Origin: Curtobacterium pusillum
GTDB taxonomy: Bacteria; Actinomycetota; Actinomycetes; Actinomycetales; Microbacteriaceae
Direction: 5' to 3'
NCBI GenBank assembly: GCA_002025645.1
Contig: CP018783.1
Coordinates: 2,418,001 to 2,482,000 of the forward strand
DNA: 64,000 nt
The notes beneath the pieces were generated by a model. It saw nothing but the letters and a program-made list of their open reading frames with translations. It made no database searches and was not told where the DNA came from. Positions 6,497 to 9,979 of this stretch are shown here, in pieces. The position numbers and the translations under genes are program-made. Position 1 is the first letter of the stretch, and every line of letters starts with the position of its first letter.

Positions 6497-7069
6497 TCAG
6501 GCGGAGGGCTTCTCCGCCGTGTCAGCGTCGTCGGCGACCCACAGGTCGTCGTCGGCGCGCAGCGTCTGGTACGCGGCGTACGCGGCACCCGCGACGGCGA
6601 CCACGCCGACGACGATGAGCGCGACACCGCCGAAGCCGATGCCCTTCTTTTGGTGCGGCACGTACTTCTCCGCAGCCTTCTTCGCGTTCTTGCCCTTCTT
6701 CTGGGCGTTCTTCACGATCTTCTTGACGCGCGGGTCCTTCGCGAGGTCGCCCACGCTCAGAACCGAACCAGCCGTCGCGACGAGGCCGGGAACGACCTCG
6801 GACTGGAACCGGTGCGATGCGCTCTGTGCTGCGCTGGTCGCGGCGTGCACACCCGTGGCGACAGCCGGCCGGATGCCGTTGTCGATCGCGTTCTGCACCC
6901 GCGGTGCGATGTCCTTGCGAGCGGCATCTGCCGCATTCGAACGCGCTTCCGCCAGGATCGCGTTCGCGTGCTCGAGGACCTTGCGCTGCTCGCCGAGGAG
7001 CGAGGCGGTCTGGCCCTTGAGCTTCTTGATCTGCTTCCGACGCTTGCGCGGGATCTCGATCGTCGTCAT
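6497..7069 (-). CDS. hypothetical protein with coiled-coil body and one C-terminal membrane helix
   Basis: A 190-residue protein of unknown function. After MTTIEIPRKRRKQIKKLKGQ comes a long charged, Ala-rich helical stretch (residues 20-115) likely to form coiled coil, then a Lys-rich patch (VKKIVKNAQKKGKNAKK), a single hydrophobic segment (GFGGVALIVVGVVAVAGAAYAAYQTL, about residues 142-167) and a short acidic tail. The ATG at 7069 is chosen because GGAGGTACC lies just upstream; an earlier start at 7102 lacks a site. It ends at a strong hairpin and diverges from ppiA. It resembles YtxH-like envelope-stress proteins in layout only; no family is claimed. Confidence 0.7.
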   Translation of the reverse strand: MTTIEIPRKRRKQIKKLKGQTASLLGEQRKVLEHANAILAEARSNAADAARKDIAPRVQNAIDNGIRPAVATGVHAATSAAQSASHRFQSEVVPGLVATAGSVLSVGDLAKDPRVKKIVKNAQKKGKNAKKAAEKYVPHQKKGIGFGGVALIVVGVVAVAGAAYAAYQTLRADDDLWVADDADTAEKPSA

Positions 7070-7186
7070 CTGGTACCTCCATCGGATCGGCGTGGGTCCC
7101 ATCCTGCCACCGGAGTCCCTGACAGGTCACGGAGCCTCACCTGTGGGATCCGTCTGACCTTCAGCAGTACATGCGAGAATCGGAAC

Positions 7187-7726
7187 ATGTCTCTGCACAC
7201 CGCTGTCGCAACGATCCACACGAACAAGGGCGACATCCGCGTCAACCTGTTCGGCAACCACGCTCCGAAGACCGTCAAGAACTTCGTCGACCTCGCGACG
7301 GGCAAGCAGGAGTGGACGCACCCGGGCACCGGCAAGGTGTCCACCGACAAGCTCTACGACGGCGTGGTCTTCCACCGCATCATCAAGGACTTCATGATCC
7401 AGGGCGGTGACCCGCTCGGTCAGGGCATCGGCGGCCCCGGCTACCGCTTCGACGACGAGATCTCCCCGGAGCTCACCTTCCAGAACCCGTACATCTTCGC
7501 GATGGCGAACGCCGGCATCCAGGGCGGCCGTGGGACGAACGGTTCGCAGTTCTTCATCACCACGGTGGCGACTCCCTGGCTGCAGGGCAAGCACACCATC
7601 TTCGGCGAGGTGGCGGACGACGAGTCCCGTGCCGTCGTCGACGCGATCGAGGGTGTGGCCACGGACGGCCGTGACAAGCCGCTCGAGGACGTCGTCATCC
7701 AGAGCATCGACGTCGAGGACGTCTGA
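7187..7726 (+). CDS. ppiA: cyclophilin-type peptidyl-prolyl cis-trans isomerase
   Basis: Cytoplasmic cyclophilin of 179 residues that isomerises Xaa-Pro bonds. The catalytic core is visible: FHRIIKDFMIQGGDP (Arg of the active site in FHR, then the FMIQGGD loop), MANAGIQGGRGTNGSQFFITT and the WLQGKHTIFGEV segment. No signal peptide. The start at 7187 is the ATG before SLHTAVATIHTNKGDI, as in homologues; the much longer open frame upstream is antisense to the preceding gene. The location between gyrA and the kinase cluster matches Mycobacterium Rv0009. The rhomboid gene follows after 8 bp and is likely co-transcribed. Confidence 0.95.
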   Translation: MSLHTAVATIHTNKGDIRVNLFGNHAPKTVKNFVDLATGKQEWTHPGTGKVSTDKLYDGVVFHRIIKDFMIQGGDPLGQGIGGPGYRFDDEISPELTFQNPYIFAMANAGIQGGRGTNGSQFFITTVATPWLQGKHTIFGEVADDESRAVVDAIEGVATDGRDKPLEDVVIQSIDVEDV

Positions 7727-7734
7727 GCCACCAC

Positions 7735-8604
7735 GTGAGCGATCCGGCGTACAACTCGAACAACACCTGCTACCGGCACCCCGACCGGCAGAGCTTCGTG
7801 CTCTGCCAGCGGTGTGGGCGCACGATCTGCCCTGAGTGCCAGACGCCGGCGGCGGTCGGGGTGCACTGCCCGGAGTGCGTGCGTGAACAGCGCGCGCAGT
7901 TCACGGCGAACCGTCGGGCGAACGGTCCCAGTGGGATGACCGTCGCCCGACGGCGCTTCGCCATGCTCGACCAGAAGGCGACGGTCGTGATCGTCGCCGT
8001 CTCGGTCGTGCTGTGGTTGCTCAACCAGGTCAGTGGCGGGTACGTCAACGCGTGGTTGAGCTACTACACGCCCCTCGTCGGCACGCAACCGTGGCGTCTG
8101 GTCACCGGGCTGTTCGTGCACTCGTCGTTCTTCCACATCCTGTTCAACATGTGGGCCGTGTGGATCTTCGGCCGGATGCTCGAGAACATCCTCGGGACGT
8201 GGCGCTTCCTGGCGCTCTACTTCCTGGCGGGTCTCGGTGGGGACCTCGCGGTCTCGTTGCTGAGCCCGGGAACGCACGTCGTCGGCGCCTCGGGTGCGAT
8301 CTTCGGCCTGTTCGCCGCGTTCTTCGTCATCCAGCGGAGCCTCGGCTACAACGCCGTGCAGCTGCTCGTGATCATGGGGTTGAACCTCGTCGTCGGCTTC
8401 CTGCCCGGCACCGCGATCTCGTGGCAGGCGCACGTCGGTGGCATCGTCCTCGGCTTCGTCACCGGGTTCGTCTTCGCGAAGACCCGTAACGTCCGACAGC
8501 GCGGCCTGCAGATCGGCCTGCTGGTGGCCGAGGCAGTCGTGCTCATCGCGGGCATCTTCGCGGTGTACGCGAGTCTCCAGGCCGGTATCGGCATCGGCGT
8601 CTGA
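7735..8604 (+). CDS. rhomboid family intramembrane serine protease with N-terminal zinc-binding motif
   Basis: A 289-residue membrane protease cutting substrates within or near the lipid bilayer. Residues 12-50 form a B-box-like cysteine/histidine cluster (CYRHPDRQSFVLCQRC, CPEC, HCPEC) that probably binds zinc in the cytoplasm. The rhomboid core has six or seven membrane segments between residues 83 and 283, the HxxxxHxxxN-type pair His129/His134/Asn138, the catalytic Ser186 in GASG and His233 in the last core helix. GTG start at 7735, 8 bp after ppiA. A strong terminator follows. Family and catalytic residues are clear; substrates cannot be inferred. Confidence 0.93.
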   Translation: MSDPAYNSNNTCYRHPDRQSFVLCQRCGRTICPECQTPAAVGVHCPECVREQRAQFTANRRANGPSGMTVARRRFAMLDQKATVVIVAVSVVLWLLNQVSGGYVNAWLSYYTPLVGTQPWRLVTGLFVHSSFFHILFNMWAVWIFGRMLENILGTWRFLALYFLAGLGGDLAVSLLSPGTHVVGASGAIFGLFAAFFVIQRSLGYNAVQLLVIMGLNLVVGFLPGTAISWQAHVGGIVLGFVTGFVFAKTRNVRQRGLQIGLLVAEAVVLIAGIFAVYASLQAGIGIGV

Positions 8605-8616
8605 CCCCGATCGTTC

Positions 8617-8648
8617 GAAGGCCCCGTCGCGTGCGCGACGGGGCCTTC
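8617..8648 (+). terminator. terminator after the rhomboid gene
   Basis: Perfect 14-bp stem GAAGGCCCCGTCGC/GCGACGGGGCCTTC with GTGC loop, 12 bp after the rhomboid stop. Confidence 0.88.
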
Positions 8649-8735
8649 GTCGTCGCGCCGGCGACGGGCCTTCATCGTCGCGCGGCACAGTGGGCATCTC
8701 GCGGAGCGTCGGGTTTCCACACGTGCACGAGCGAG

Positions 8736-8916
8736 TTGTCCACAGCTGTGGAGAAAGCGGTGAGTTACACGCGTGTGATTATCCCCATTGTGGACTCTGC
8801 TGTGGATAACTCCGGGGCGGGGGTGTGGAGAGTGGTGTGGAGAATGGGGACAACTGTGGACAACCGTTGCCGCAGTGGGGAGAACGCGATCGTCGTCGCG
8901 ACAGCGCTGTGGACAA
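8736..8916. promoter_or_regulatory. cluster of DnaA-box sequences in a convergent gap
   Basis: Four copies match TTRTCCACA exactly: TTGTCCACA at 8736 (+), TGTGGATAA at 8801, TGTGGACAA at 8855 and at 8908 (all reverse). Looser copies lie among them: TGTGGAGAA 8747, TTATCCCCA 8779, TGTGGACTC 8789, TGTGGAGAA 8836, TGGGGACAA 8845, TGGGGAGAA 8876. A 10-bp palindrome ACACGCGTGT is at 8767. Both flanking genes point inward and each has its own terminator, so no promoter is expected here. DnaA binding is inferred from the consensus. Confidence 0.75.
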
Positions 8917-8941
8917 CTGCCCGGGGTAGCTCGACAACGAC

Positions 8942-8975
8942 GACGCCCGCCGCACCACACGGTGCGACGGGCGTC
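8942..8975 (-). terminator. terminator of crgA
   Basis: 15-bp stem GACGCCCGCCGCACC/GGTGCGACGGGCGTC with one mismatched pair and an ACAC loop, 23 bp beyond the crgA stop. Confidence 0.8.
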
Positions 8976-8997
8976 AGGGGAACAGGTGGCCGGGCTG

Positions 8998-9252
8998 CTA
9001 CCGCCAGCGGGTGGTCATGAGGAAGCCGACGAACATGATGCCGAAGCCGATCAGGATGTTCCACGACCCGAGGGACGGGACCGGCAGCGTGGTGTTCGAG
9101 ATGTAGAAGACGATCACCCAGGCGAGCCCGATGAGCATGAAGCCGAACATGACCGGCTTGAACCAGACGGGGTTCGGCTGGTCCCCCGCGGTGTCGACCG
9201 AGTCGGCTCGGGTCCTCCGGGCGGGCTTGGTGCGGTCCTTGTCCTTGGCCAT
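8998..9252 (-). CDS. crgA: cell division protein CrgA
   Basis: Small membrane protein of 84 residues that, in Mycobacterium and Streptomyces, joins the FtsZ/FtsQ/FtsI divisome and helps recruit peptidoglycan synthases. It has a charged N-terminal tail of about 27 residues, the conserved NPVWFKPVMFGFMLIGLAWV first helix and a second helix (WNILIGFGIMFVGFLMTTRWR). Family length and the two-helix layout match. Position between ppiA/rhomboid and trpG-pknB is the conserved one. A TAGGAT -10 hexamer ends 7 nt before the ATG, suggesting a leaderless transcript. Confidence 0.95.
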   Translation of the reverse strand: MAKDKDRTKPARRTRADSVDTAGDQPNPVWFKPVMFGFMLIGLAWVIVFYISNTTLPVPSLGSWNILIGFGIMFVGFLMTTRWR

Positions 9253-9259
9253 GGCCGGT

Positions 9260-9265
9260 ATCCTA
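9260..9265 (-). promoter_or_regulatory. -10 element of crgA (leaderless)
   Basis: TAGGAT on the minus strand followed by 7 nt and the ATG at 9252. Confidence 0.55.
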
Positions 9266-9334
9266 CCGTGACCACGTGTGTGCGAGGACTCTCAGCCCGC
9301 TGCACACATCCCCCACGAGTACGGTGAACCGACC

Positions 9335-9979
9335 ATGACCAAGATCCTCGTCGTCGACAACTACGACAGCTTCGTCTACACGCTGAACGGCTACGTGCAG
9401 CAGCTCGGTGCTGAGACCGACGTGGTGCGGAACGACACGTTCCCCGCGTCCGAGATCGCCGACCGCATCGCCGACTACGACGGTGTGCTGCTGTCTCCCG
9501 GGCCAGGAACGCCGGCCGACGCCGGCATCTCGATCGCGACCGTGCACGCCGCGATCGAGGCGGACAAGCCGCTCCTCGGTGTCTGCCTCGGCCACCAGGC
9601 GATCGCCGAGGCGCTCGGCGCCACGGTGACGCACGCTGAAGAGCTCATGCACGGCAAGACGTCACAGGTCGACCACGACGACAGCGCGCTGTTCGTCGGG
9701 GTCCCGCACCCGTTCACCGCCACCCGCTACCACTCGCTCGCGATCGTCGAGGGGACCGTCTCCGAGGAGCTCACCGTCACGGCGCGGACCGGCGGCGGCG
9801 TGATCATGGGTGTGCAGCACCGCGAGCACCCCGTGTACGGCGTCCAGTTCCACCCCGAGTCGGTCCTCACCGAGGGCGGGTACCGCATGGTCGGCAACTG
9901 GCTGGAGACGACCGGACTGTCCGGGGCGGCCGATCGTGCGGCAGGACTGAACCCGCTCATCGCGGCGCACCGCGCCTGA
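9335..9979 (+). CDS. trpG: class I glutamine amidotransferase (anthranilate/aminodeoxychorismate synthase component II)
   Basis: A 214-residue glutaminase that supplies ammonia to a TrpE or PabB partner for anthranilate or aminodeoxychorismate synthesis. The triad is present: Cys84 in GVCLGHQ, His173 and Glu175 in QFHPES; the oxyanion strand is LLSPGPGTP. The start at 9335 gives MTKILVVDNYDSFVYTL, the normal N-terminus. No TrpE/PabB gene is nearby; the orphan position next to pknB equals Mycobacterium Rv0013, usually called trpG or pabA, so the symbol is a convention and the protein may serve both pathways. A TACGGT hexamer ends 9 nt before the start. Confidence 0.9.
   Translation: MTKILVVDNYDSFVYTLNGYVQQLGAETDVVRNDTFPASEIADRIADYDGVLLSPGPGTPADAGISIATVHAAIEADKPLLGVCLGHQAIAEALGATVTHAEELMHGKTSQVDHDDSALFVGVPHPFTATRYHSLAIVEGTVSEELTVTARTGGGVIMGVQHREHPVYGVQFHPESVLTEGGYRMVGNWLETTGLSGAADRAAGLNPLIAAHRA

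Follow-up and report, generated by a model that had tools for sequence, protein, structure and literature searches.

The gap between the convergent rhomboid protease and crgA genes of Curtobacterium pusillum contains a cluster of DnaA boxes arranged around a composite core, an 18-bp palindrome with closely spaced boxes, that is conserved in many actinobacteria and is independent of any one neighboring gene. The palindrome has further copies at oriC, at ribonucleotide reductase operons and in the region upstream of a WhiB-family gene. Judged from its sequence and distribution, the gap probably acts in cis as an independent DnaA-control locus, of the kind represented by datA and DARS, that is shared with a second, palindrome-binding regulator. 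We infer that DnaA binds here in this organism, that a partner protein takes part, and that DnaA is affected as a result. DnaA binding at the corresponding place has been shown for Mycobacterium tuberculosis and M. smegmatis only, and an effect on cell length for M. tuberculosis only. The composite architecture, its breadth and the recurrence of the palindrome in the three settings are new; the literature searched, which comprised mostly open-access papers and no preprints, held no description of the composite core or of its breadth. The window, the whole stretch of DNA analyzed, is 64,000 nucleotides long; positions with the prefix C1 refer to the whole genome.

Within 181 bp of the gap (8736–8916) are four exact TTRTCCACA boxes, at 8736 (+), 8801 (−), 8855 (−) and 8908 (−), and four boxes with one mismatch, at 8747, 8779, 8836 and 8845. 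The four exact boxes agree with the sequence-only reading, and the remaining variants described there, identified by eye, have two mismatches. The exact boxes of the window are confined to these four, where 0.14 would be expected from shuffles. The leftmost, TTGTCCACA (8736–8744, + strand, exact pattern search), forms an inverted pair with the one-mismatch box at 8747–8755 (− strand). The latter is the first in a series of four − strand boxes, continued by the exact boxes at 8801–8809, 8855–8863 and 8908–8916, which are spaced by 54, 54 and 53 bp. Two more one-mismatch boxes on the − strand, at 8836–8844 and 8845–8853 (TTGTCCCCA), were found by mismatch search. In a repeat search of 8600–9010, copies of the box unit started 54, 35, 19 and 53 bp apart.

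Alignment of the TTATCCACA boxes revealed an abutting palindrome, AATTACACnnGTGTAATT. Together they define a core of about 50 bp in which the 18-bp palindrome AATYACACnnGTGTRATT is followed by a + box 7–8 bp to the right of its center, a middle box, and an inverted − box at 28–32 bp. Both the palindrome and the conserved core had been missed when the boxes were first noticed. In the window, the palindrome AGTTACAC-GC-GTGTGATT is found at 8763–8780 and is presumed to be the site of a dimeric protein. The first core box, TTATCCCCA (8779–8787, + strand), has one mismatch; the middle box, GAGTCCACA (8789–8797, − strand), was placed by eye, has two and coincides with the central box of the aligned cores; the third is the exact box at 8801–8809. 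A sequence-only profile of 44 cores, R1, has its best match in this genome at 8761–8812 on the + strand (C1:2426761–2426812, E 2.9e-13), the C. pusillum sequence itself being among the 44 sources.

The two flanking genes do converge, as had been read from the sequence: the rhomboid gene on the left (7735–8604, + strand; PF01694, E 1.8e-34) and crgA on the right (8998–9252, − strand, start codon set by eye; PF06781, E 3.7e-29 at C1:2427001–2427246). A terminator-like 16-bp hairpin follows the rhomboid gene (8616–8649, + strand) and a 15-bp hairpin follows crgA (8942–8975, − strand), both identified by repeat search and folding. The stretch 8606–8672, which takes in two hairpins together, folds at −45.2 kcal/mol (z −4.3 vs shuffles) and the stretch 8935–8985 at −34.4 kcal/mol (z −6.2 vs shuffles). 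Of the two terminators proposed earlier, the strong hairpins at the edges of the gap were borne out; both are without a U tract and neither was reported by the terminator scan. The core is not folded as RNA beyond the level of shuffles on either strand (z −0.39 and −0.09), and an Rfam search of the window returned only tRNA above threshold. On these two results, an RNA element was rejected.

Given that the two genes converge and oriC is nearby, the element might serve as a roadblock or terminator at which box-bound DnaA stops RNA polymerase, and DnaA-box roadblocks are known in E. coli. Strong hairpins already stand at both edges of the gap, however, and the best profile matches of two other genomes fall outside convergent gaps, between rpmH and dnaA in G300 and between dnaA and dnaN in G246. 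In M. tuberculosis dnaA mutants, the expression of neither flanking gene is altered (PMC7738170). A roadblock is thus very unlikely.

Over the whole genome (4,541,048 bp), 25 exact boxes were counted. Twelve belong to four clusters at 2393–2427 kb, and the remaining 13 equal the count of a reversed control pattern (13). These clusters, the only places on C1 where neighboring exact boxes lie within 500 bp of each other, are located between rplI and dnaB (three boxes, C1:2393247–2393322), between rpmH, which was found by motif, and dnaA (two boxes, C1:2412283–2412426), between dnaA and dnaN (three boxes, C1:2414217–2414394), and in the crgA gap (four boxes, C1:2426736–2426916). The sequence-only reading had made its case depend on the density of TTRTCCACA in the rest of the genome, and the crgA gap is indeed the largest of only four clusters, with control level elsewhere. 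By a simple count against the genome background, four exact boxes in 181 bp has a Poisson p of ~3e-15, or ~1e-8 after correction for position. The same reading had placed dnaA-dnaN several kilobases off, to the left of the window, which agrees with the location of dnaA at C1:2412667–2414040, 12.7 kb left of the cluster.

Two further observations concern exact boxes at large. Upstream of dnaB, the rplI-dnaB gap (C1:2393227–2393474) holds three exact and three one-mismatch DnaA boxes. In four other genomes, the excess of exact boxes over the reversed control (98/34 in G290, 61/21 in G300, 60/21 in G114 and 46/21 in G286) is far above that of C. pusillum (25/13).

A search of the genus found crgA in 40 of 40 genomes, and 29 loci were read besides that of C. 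pusillum. All 29 have at least one exact box, and 5–10 boxes with no more than one mismatch, within 500 bp of crgA, and boxes recur at matching places in at least 12 other genomes of the genus. Measured from the palindrome center, the first core box at +7 and the third at +29 (at most one mismatch) are present in 29/29 loci, with the core spacing kept throughout. The first and third boxes of the 54-bp series are found at −25 in 27/29 and at +83 in 26/29, the fourth at +135 or +136 in 5 and 11 of the 29, and a box at −36 in 24/29. When 31 genus gaps were aligned, eight boxes had a mean pairwise identity of 0.85 as compared to 0.50 between boxes (p 2e-14), the conserved palindrome being counted as part of "between"; by eye, the palindrome in these gaps is conserved as well as the boxes. 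A blastn search with window 7000–9400, gave as the closest of 80 listed named loci Curtobacterium sp. MCBA15_008 (87.1% over 2472 bp) and C. pusillum DE0005 (87.6% over 2405 bp).

Beyond the genus, the Pfam CrgA model served to anchor loci from 79 genomes of the family, 48 of the order, 5 Streptomyces-like ones, 40 others of the class and 20 of the phylum. The loci of the order, class and phylum are mostly those with the best CrgA scores or picked by hand, and hence are not random samples. In that group order, the 500 bp downstream of crgA include an exact box in 56/79, 20/48, 5/5, 18/40 and 8/20 loci; if one mismatch is allowed, the counts are 67/79, 33/48, 5/5, 38/40 and 16/20. For the 800 bp that precede the crgA end, a smaller set gave corresponding counts of an exact box of 2/78, 0/28, 0/4, 0/20 and 0/20. 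No CrgA match of any kind was present in 62 of the 119 genomes drawn from the phylum. The same sequence emerged without a motif as input: in the 350 bp after crgA, the top 9-mer in the family was TTATCCACA (55/79 vs 2/79 in a control stretch), and the top 9-mers in the 112 loci of the other sets were GTTGTCCAC, TTGTCCACA and TTATCCACA, at 30, 28 and 28 vs 0, 0 and 1 in the control.

The composite core was then defined by a rule of at least 12 of 16 palindrome positions, at most two mismatches in both outer boxes, and a location no more than 3 kb after crgA, bearing in mind that 187 of 241 loci extend only 1.4–2.9 kb beyond that gene. By this rule, a core is found downstream of crgA in 29/29 loci of the genus, 64/81 of the family, 26/58 of the order, 31/45 of the class, 0/5 of the Streptomyces-like group and 8/23 of the phylum, and upstream, over stretches of varying length, in 0/29, 1/81, 1/57, 0/43, 0/5 and 0/22, respectively. 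The conservation in relatives on which the original interest in the cluster hung is present for boxes and core alike. The core is not universal, since the rule does not find it in 17/81 family, 32/58 order, 14/45 class, 15/23 phylum and 5/5 Streptomyces-like loci, some of these misses being due to the rule or to short DNA, as in G026 and G249 where the profile does find it. Because the consensus was derived from loci near crgA, these presence counts are also partly circular, which the pattern and profile scans described below only partly remedy.

The geometry of the core is more constant than its surroundings. The spacings from palindrome to core boxes are nearly fixed in the genus, family, order and class sets, and in nine loci the core lies 0.45–2.4 kb from crgA with its geometry largely kept. 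The same core occurs in the Mycobacterium-like loci L078, L081 and L189 and in named Mycobacterium records; in mycobacterium-like genomes the palindrome takes the form RATCACACnnGTGTGATT, with one half imperfect in some. The third box, TTATCCACA, runs in one direction in 53 and in the other in 4 of 57 family loci, and 17 vs 17 beyond the family. This variation in orientation relative to crgA favors a DNA site over an RNA or a terminator. It was said at the outset that the element is not a promoter, and this holds because the genes converge and the core geometry stays constant across relatives while neighbors, orientation and distance to crgA change.

For a search blind to genes, the exact core pattern was scanned over a collection with one genome per species (84,980 species). 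At least 120 loci match, and other phyla may be undersampled among the 120 taken. In 112 of 120 crgA was found, with the core downstream in 112/112, within 1 kb in 110 and at 1.1–1.2 kb in two. Among the eight loci without crgA, seven have the core no more than ~500 bp from the end of the retrieved sequence, and the eighth (L380) has no crgA match and has the core ~0.1 kb after a rhomboid gene. The 80 listed match titles are all actinobacterial (e.g. Curtobacterium, Microbacterium, Mycobacterium, Leucobacter, Cryobacterium, Prauserella), and in 75 of these 80, tblastn places crgA with the core 6–246 bp downstream. The pattern had no matches in the virus collection, and a viral origin of the core was rejected on that count.

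The R1 profile was applied to 60 genomes in which crgA and dnaA had been located, some of which had also contributed to the profile, and gave a match at E ≤0.5 in 59; G027 had no profile match at all. The 57 best matches listed (G387 and G352 left out) comprise 34 within 1 kb of crgA, 4 at 1–10 kb from it, 11 within 2 kb of dnaA, and 8 elsewhere. At E ≤1e-5, 41 genomes remain, with 30, 2, 4 (near dnaA) and 5 matches in these respective places; the E-values are rough, and the strict filters used for more than 40 genomes lose weak matches. A single outstanding match is the usual case, as in C. pusillum where the next best after 2.9e-13 is 1.3e-4, and several genomes have two strong ones (e.g. 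G210, G036, G059, G267).

The genomes in which the core lies away from crgA are informative about its neighbors. In G267, G218, G236 and G299, the core adjoins a rhomboid gene at 1.4 to ~750 kb from crgA (1.4 kb in G299); this adjacency was read for G299 and for three (G267, G218 and G236) of the eight genomes with a match elsewhere, the other five being G252 (which has the genus code of G236), G326, G100, G142 and G253. The best match of G300, G286 and G210 immediately precedes dnaA, and that of G246 falls between dnaA and dnaN. Thus, the element is not tied to one neighbor gene. Closeness to oriC is not strict either: G267 and G218 have crgA ~0.6 Mb from dnaA and the core at 143 and 177 kb from dnaA, while in G122 and G336 boxes remain beside crgA at 336 and 131 kb from dnaA. 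Of the genomes with crgA within 60 kb of dnaA, 30/49 have an exact box near crgA, vs 2/10 of those beyond (Fisher p 0.033), a test that is weakened by kinship and by the element being kept elsewhere rather than lost in several of the far genomes.

Regulation of crgA or rhomboid transcription by the boxes would suit the usual position of the element close to the crgA stop codon and one weak promoter-like match on the − strand (8806–8778). The element stands at the 3′ ends of both genes, however, it is also found beside a rhomboid gene without crgA, beside crgA without a rhomboid match and at dnaA, and its orientation relative to crgA differs between lineages, all of which makes this role most improbable.

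Two of the options raised by the sequence-only reading, a secondary initiation site and a part of an extended origin, may be considered together as a second site, or distal module of oriC, that opens DNA. The DnaA boxes and palindrome are common to oriC, and at E ≤1e-5 the best composite match is just upstream of dnaA in three genomes and in dnaA-dnaN in one. A local minimum of the cumulative GC skew is found at C1:2421000–2427000, near the gap and not at dnaA, within the 94 kb examined; the curve is shallow. Against this, there is no marked AT-rich unwinding stretch, the AT maximum over 40 bp being 52.5% in the gap and 57.5% in dnaA-dnaN. A regular expression for three GAT/AAT repeats of the DnaA-trio type found none in the gap and none in dnaA-dnaN either. 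In PMC7738170, oriC and the Rv0010c-Rv0011c site of M. tuberculosis are listed as separate DnaA peaks. An initiating role is accordingly held to be highly improbable. A secondary site has little positive support besides the skew minimum, and the description as an extended origin was apt in part, both component motifs being shared with oriC in many relatives.

The sharing with oriC was quantified in the family, where a palindrome of at least 12/16 is present in the dnaA-dnaN gap of 17/26 genomes, where the remainder of these loci would predict 0.42 hits. All of these oriC matches are imperfect, at 12–13 of 16; that of C. pusillum is ACTCACACGTGTGTAGTT. Elsewhere, 18 profile or palindrome matches away from crgA were picked by hand and read, and 13 fall into three conserved settings. 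These are a WhiB-family gene (L405–L407 and C. pusillum, with PF02467 tested for L405 and the C. pusillum gene), nrdH-nrdE (L408, L420 and C. pusillum), and nrdR with class II ribonucleotide reductase (L410–L413, L417 and L418), the palindrome being upstream in each case. Family models identified the nrd genes in one or two loci each; in the others, protein similarity was used. The WhiB-family gene is taken by us to be whmD/whiB2. Among the other places, L414 and L415 are near dnaA by position, and L409 and L245 are outside these settings.

The WhiB setting was examined further in the order, where 55/59 genomes had a match to the gene and 30 loci were read. A palindrome lies within 700 bp upstream in 30/30 at a score of at least 12 and in 28/30 at 13 or more; at 12 or more, it is found downstream in 0/30 and in shuffles in 0/30. 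By eye, in all but L442 of the 30 loci, a TTGAC sequence resembling a −35 element precedes the palindrome, whose right half reads as a −10 element (TGTAAT or close) ~17 bases on.

Several individual copies may be recorded here. In C. pusillum, the palindrome in the promoter of the WhiB-family gene is at C1:972996–973013 (L250), and the one upstream of nrdH-nrdE, at C1:1822000–1822043 (L416), is accompanied by DnaA-box-like sites. Three identical 18-base palindrome-like sequences at C1:905530, 1859698 and 3800777 are perhaps a repeat family of this genome. In a distant actinobacterium (G107, L419), a palindrome with DnaA-box-like sites lies upstream of dnaE, which encodes DNA polymerase III alpha, at about base 1500.

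Several proteins were considered as the owner of the palindrome. CRP was dismissed, on our own assumption. NrdR was rejected as the ACATCTAGT boxes, which we take to be its sites, stand beside and not in the palindrome at nrd promoters. For ParB, no parS site within two mismatches was found in the window. The MtrA motif is a direct repeat (PMC6265350) and the site here is an inverted one; BldO, a Streptomyces repressor of whiB, is described as binding a different repeat, TGxAATTxCA (PMC5485038).

WhiA together with WhmD is a lead, since targets overlap and a GACAC-like half-site is present in WhiB-gene promoters. GACAC is the reported binding motif of WhiA, whose targets in S. venezuelae include nrdR, with binding upstream of that gene (PMC3781837), and WhiB is proposed to direct WhiA (PMC6282962). 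GACAC resembles the half-site above all in the promoters of WhiB genes, where it is present in many palindrome copies, often as TGACAC. In contrast, the half-sites of the element are mostly TACAC or CACAC and symmetric, whereas WhiA is reported to act as a monomer on asymmetric GACAC (PMC3781837, PMC6282962). The window palindrome (8763–8780) does not contain GACAC, its half-sites being TTACAC and TCACAC, and WhiA with WhmD may be no more than a lead for it, while WhiA sites without GACAC are also described (PMC3781837). HigA2 of M. tuberculosis is a second lead: it is reported to recognize ATATCAC(N)6GTGATAT and bound the Rv0010c 5′ region in vitro, and its inner part, ATCAC(N)6GTGAT, is compatible with the palindrome as seen in mycobacteria. 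However, 8 µM was reported for full binding at Rv0010c (PMC11205783), and HigA2 is not plausible as a phylum-wide partner without further evidence.

The sharing of motifs with oriC also bears on passive titration, in which the boxes would simply soak up DnaA and the palindrome would belong to an unrelated regulator alongside. The genus has an expanded array around the core, with its 5–10 boxes per locus over 29 loci, and each of the five Streptomyces-like genomes has three exact boxes (5/5) with no palindrome (0/5), both as titration would have it. A chance neighbor does not explain why the spacings between palindrome and core boxes are nearly fixed in the genus, family, order and class, nor why oriC often has both motifs. 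Passive titration is thus unlikely, if less so than the other alternatives.

The reading as a DnaA-control locus is favored by the fixed spacings, the conservation of boxes over spacers, the independence from neighbors, and the two motifs shared with oriC. Under this reading, DnaA would bind the box array, and the three-box core and the 54-bp series would set boxes in register for a side-by-side assembly of DnaA. A second protein, probably a dimer, would bind the abutting palindrome and help to build or gate the DnaA complex. The complex may then alter the amount of active DnaA available to oriC, ~12 kb away, as datA or DARS do. With the same palindrome at oriC, the WhiB-family gene and ribonucleotide reductase operons, the partner protein would tie initiation to dNTP supply and division.

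On a wider and tentative view, to which we give somewhat less than even weight, this is an ancient actinobacterial composite element, usually with one strong copy per genome, that docks DnaA and one palindrome regulator. The regulator would also act at oriC, whmD/whiB2 and ribonucleotide reductase, making the element a node of a phylum-wide cell-cycle circuit that includes the clinically mutated site of M. tuberculosis. DnaA-control loci outside oriC are known chiefly from E. coli, B. subtilis and Streptomyces. If the proposal is true, actinobacteria would possess a counterpart served by a partner protein of its own, which could be retrieved from harmless relatives with a short DNA bait, and initiation of replication, dNTP supply and division would be linked in this phylum by a concrete sequence.

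Of the known systems, the closest is the Rv0010c-Rv0011c site of M. tuberculosis. Rv0011c is presumably crgA, and the CrgA protein encoded in the Mycobacterium-like locus L081 matches the PDB entry 2mmu, "Cell division protein CrgA". According to Hicks et al. (2020, PMC7738170), DnaA binds the Rv0010c-Rv0011c region in vitro, and ChIP-seq in M. smegmatis shows a peak at the homologous region. Clinical strains carry recurrent mutations in a small palindrome at the site and site mutants are longer, with the mechanism and function left open there (PMC7738170). Like the element described here, the site is on the 3′ side of crgA, near oriC. It likewise consists of a DnaA-box cluster with a palindrome (PMC7738170). 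The correspondence extends to the genome: of the five mycobacterial DnaA regions published, oriC, rpmH-dnaA and upstream of dnaB match the other three clusters of C. pusillum, so that its four clusters are counterparts of four of the five, the fifth being Rv3843c-RVnc0040 (PMC7738170). The C. pusillum gap differs in that it is convergent with a rhomboid gene and has four exact boxes, three of which form the 54-bp series with a fourth, one-mismatch box. The palindrome is also read here as a separate motif, the M. tuberculosis site being compared by description. In the view of Hicks et al., the palindrome is two DnaA-box-like sequences, which means that a second protein may not be needed there (PMC7738170). 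No change of initiation rate is reported for dnaA mutants in the same text, which weakens a simple control-of-initiation reading (PMC7738170).

The sign of the effect can be discussed only by analogy. Of the three options in the sequence-only reading, a datA-like sink was the best, as the M. tuberculosis counterpart binds DnaA and lengthens cells when mutated (PMC7738170); such a locus may restrain or support DnaA. The site mutants are similar to dnaA mutants likened to hypomorphs by Hicks et al. (PMC7738170), and for this reason the present reading leans slightly to an activating, DARS-like role. The clusters of Streptomyces and Bacillus are said to repress initiation, which would be of opposite sign to this mycobacterial hint. 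The sources cited for them, in S. coelicolor and B. subtilis, are reportedly Smulczyk-Krawczyszyn 2006 and Okumura 2012. Reviews cite both clusters as oriC-proximal like the present element and as repressing untimely initiation (PMC4585315, PMC5742627). The way in which boxes are read in actinomycetes may also be influenced by DnaA domain I, which is reported to form a conserved dimer there (PMC13270200). The Streptomyces-like genomes differ in having boxes beside crgA without the palindrome core.

One of the published S. coelicolor clusters is perhaps this very locus, which is a guess on our part. With datA, DARS1 and DARS2 of Escherichia coli, the element has in common that it is a non-coding cluster of DnaA boxes outside oriC in a conserved place. 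The E. coli loci have IHF and Fis sites, with IHF as the helper, and these would be replaced here, at most, by an unrelated palindrome. In activity, datA is marked by the hydrolysis of DnaA-ATP and DARS by the conversion of DnaA-ADP to DnaA-ATP with IHF/Fis. The element may thus be likened to datA and DARS without being filed as a member of either.
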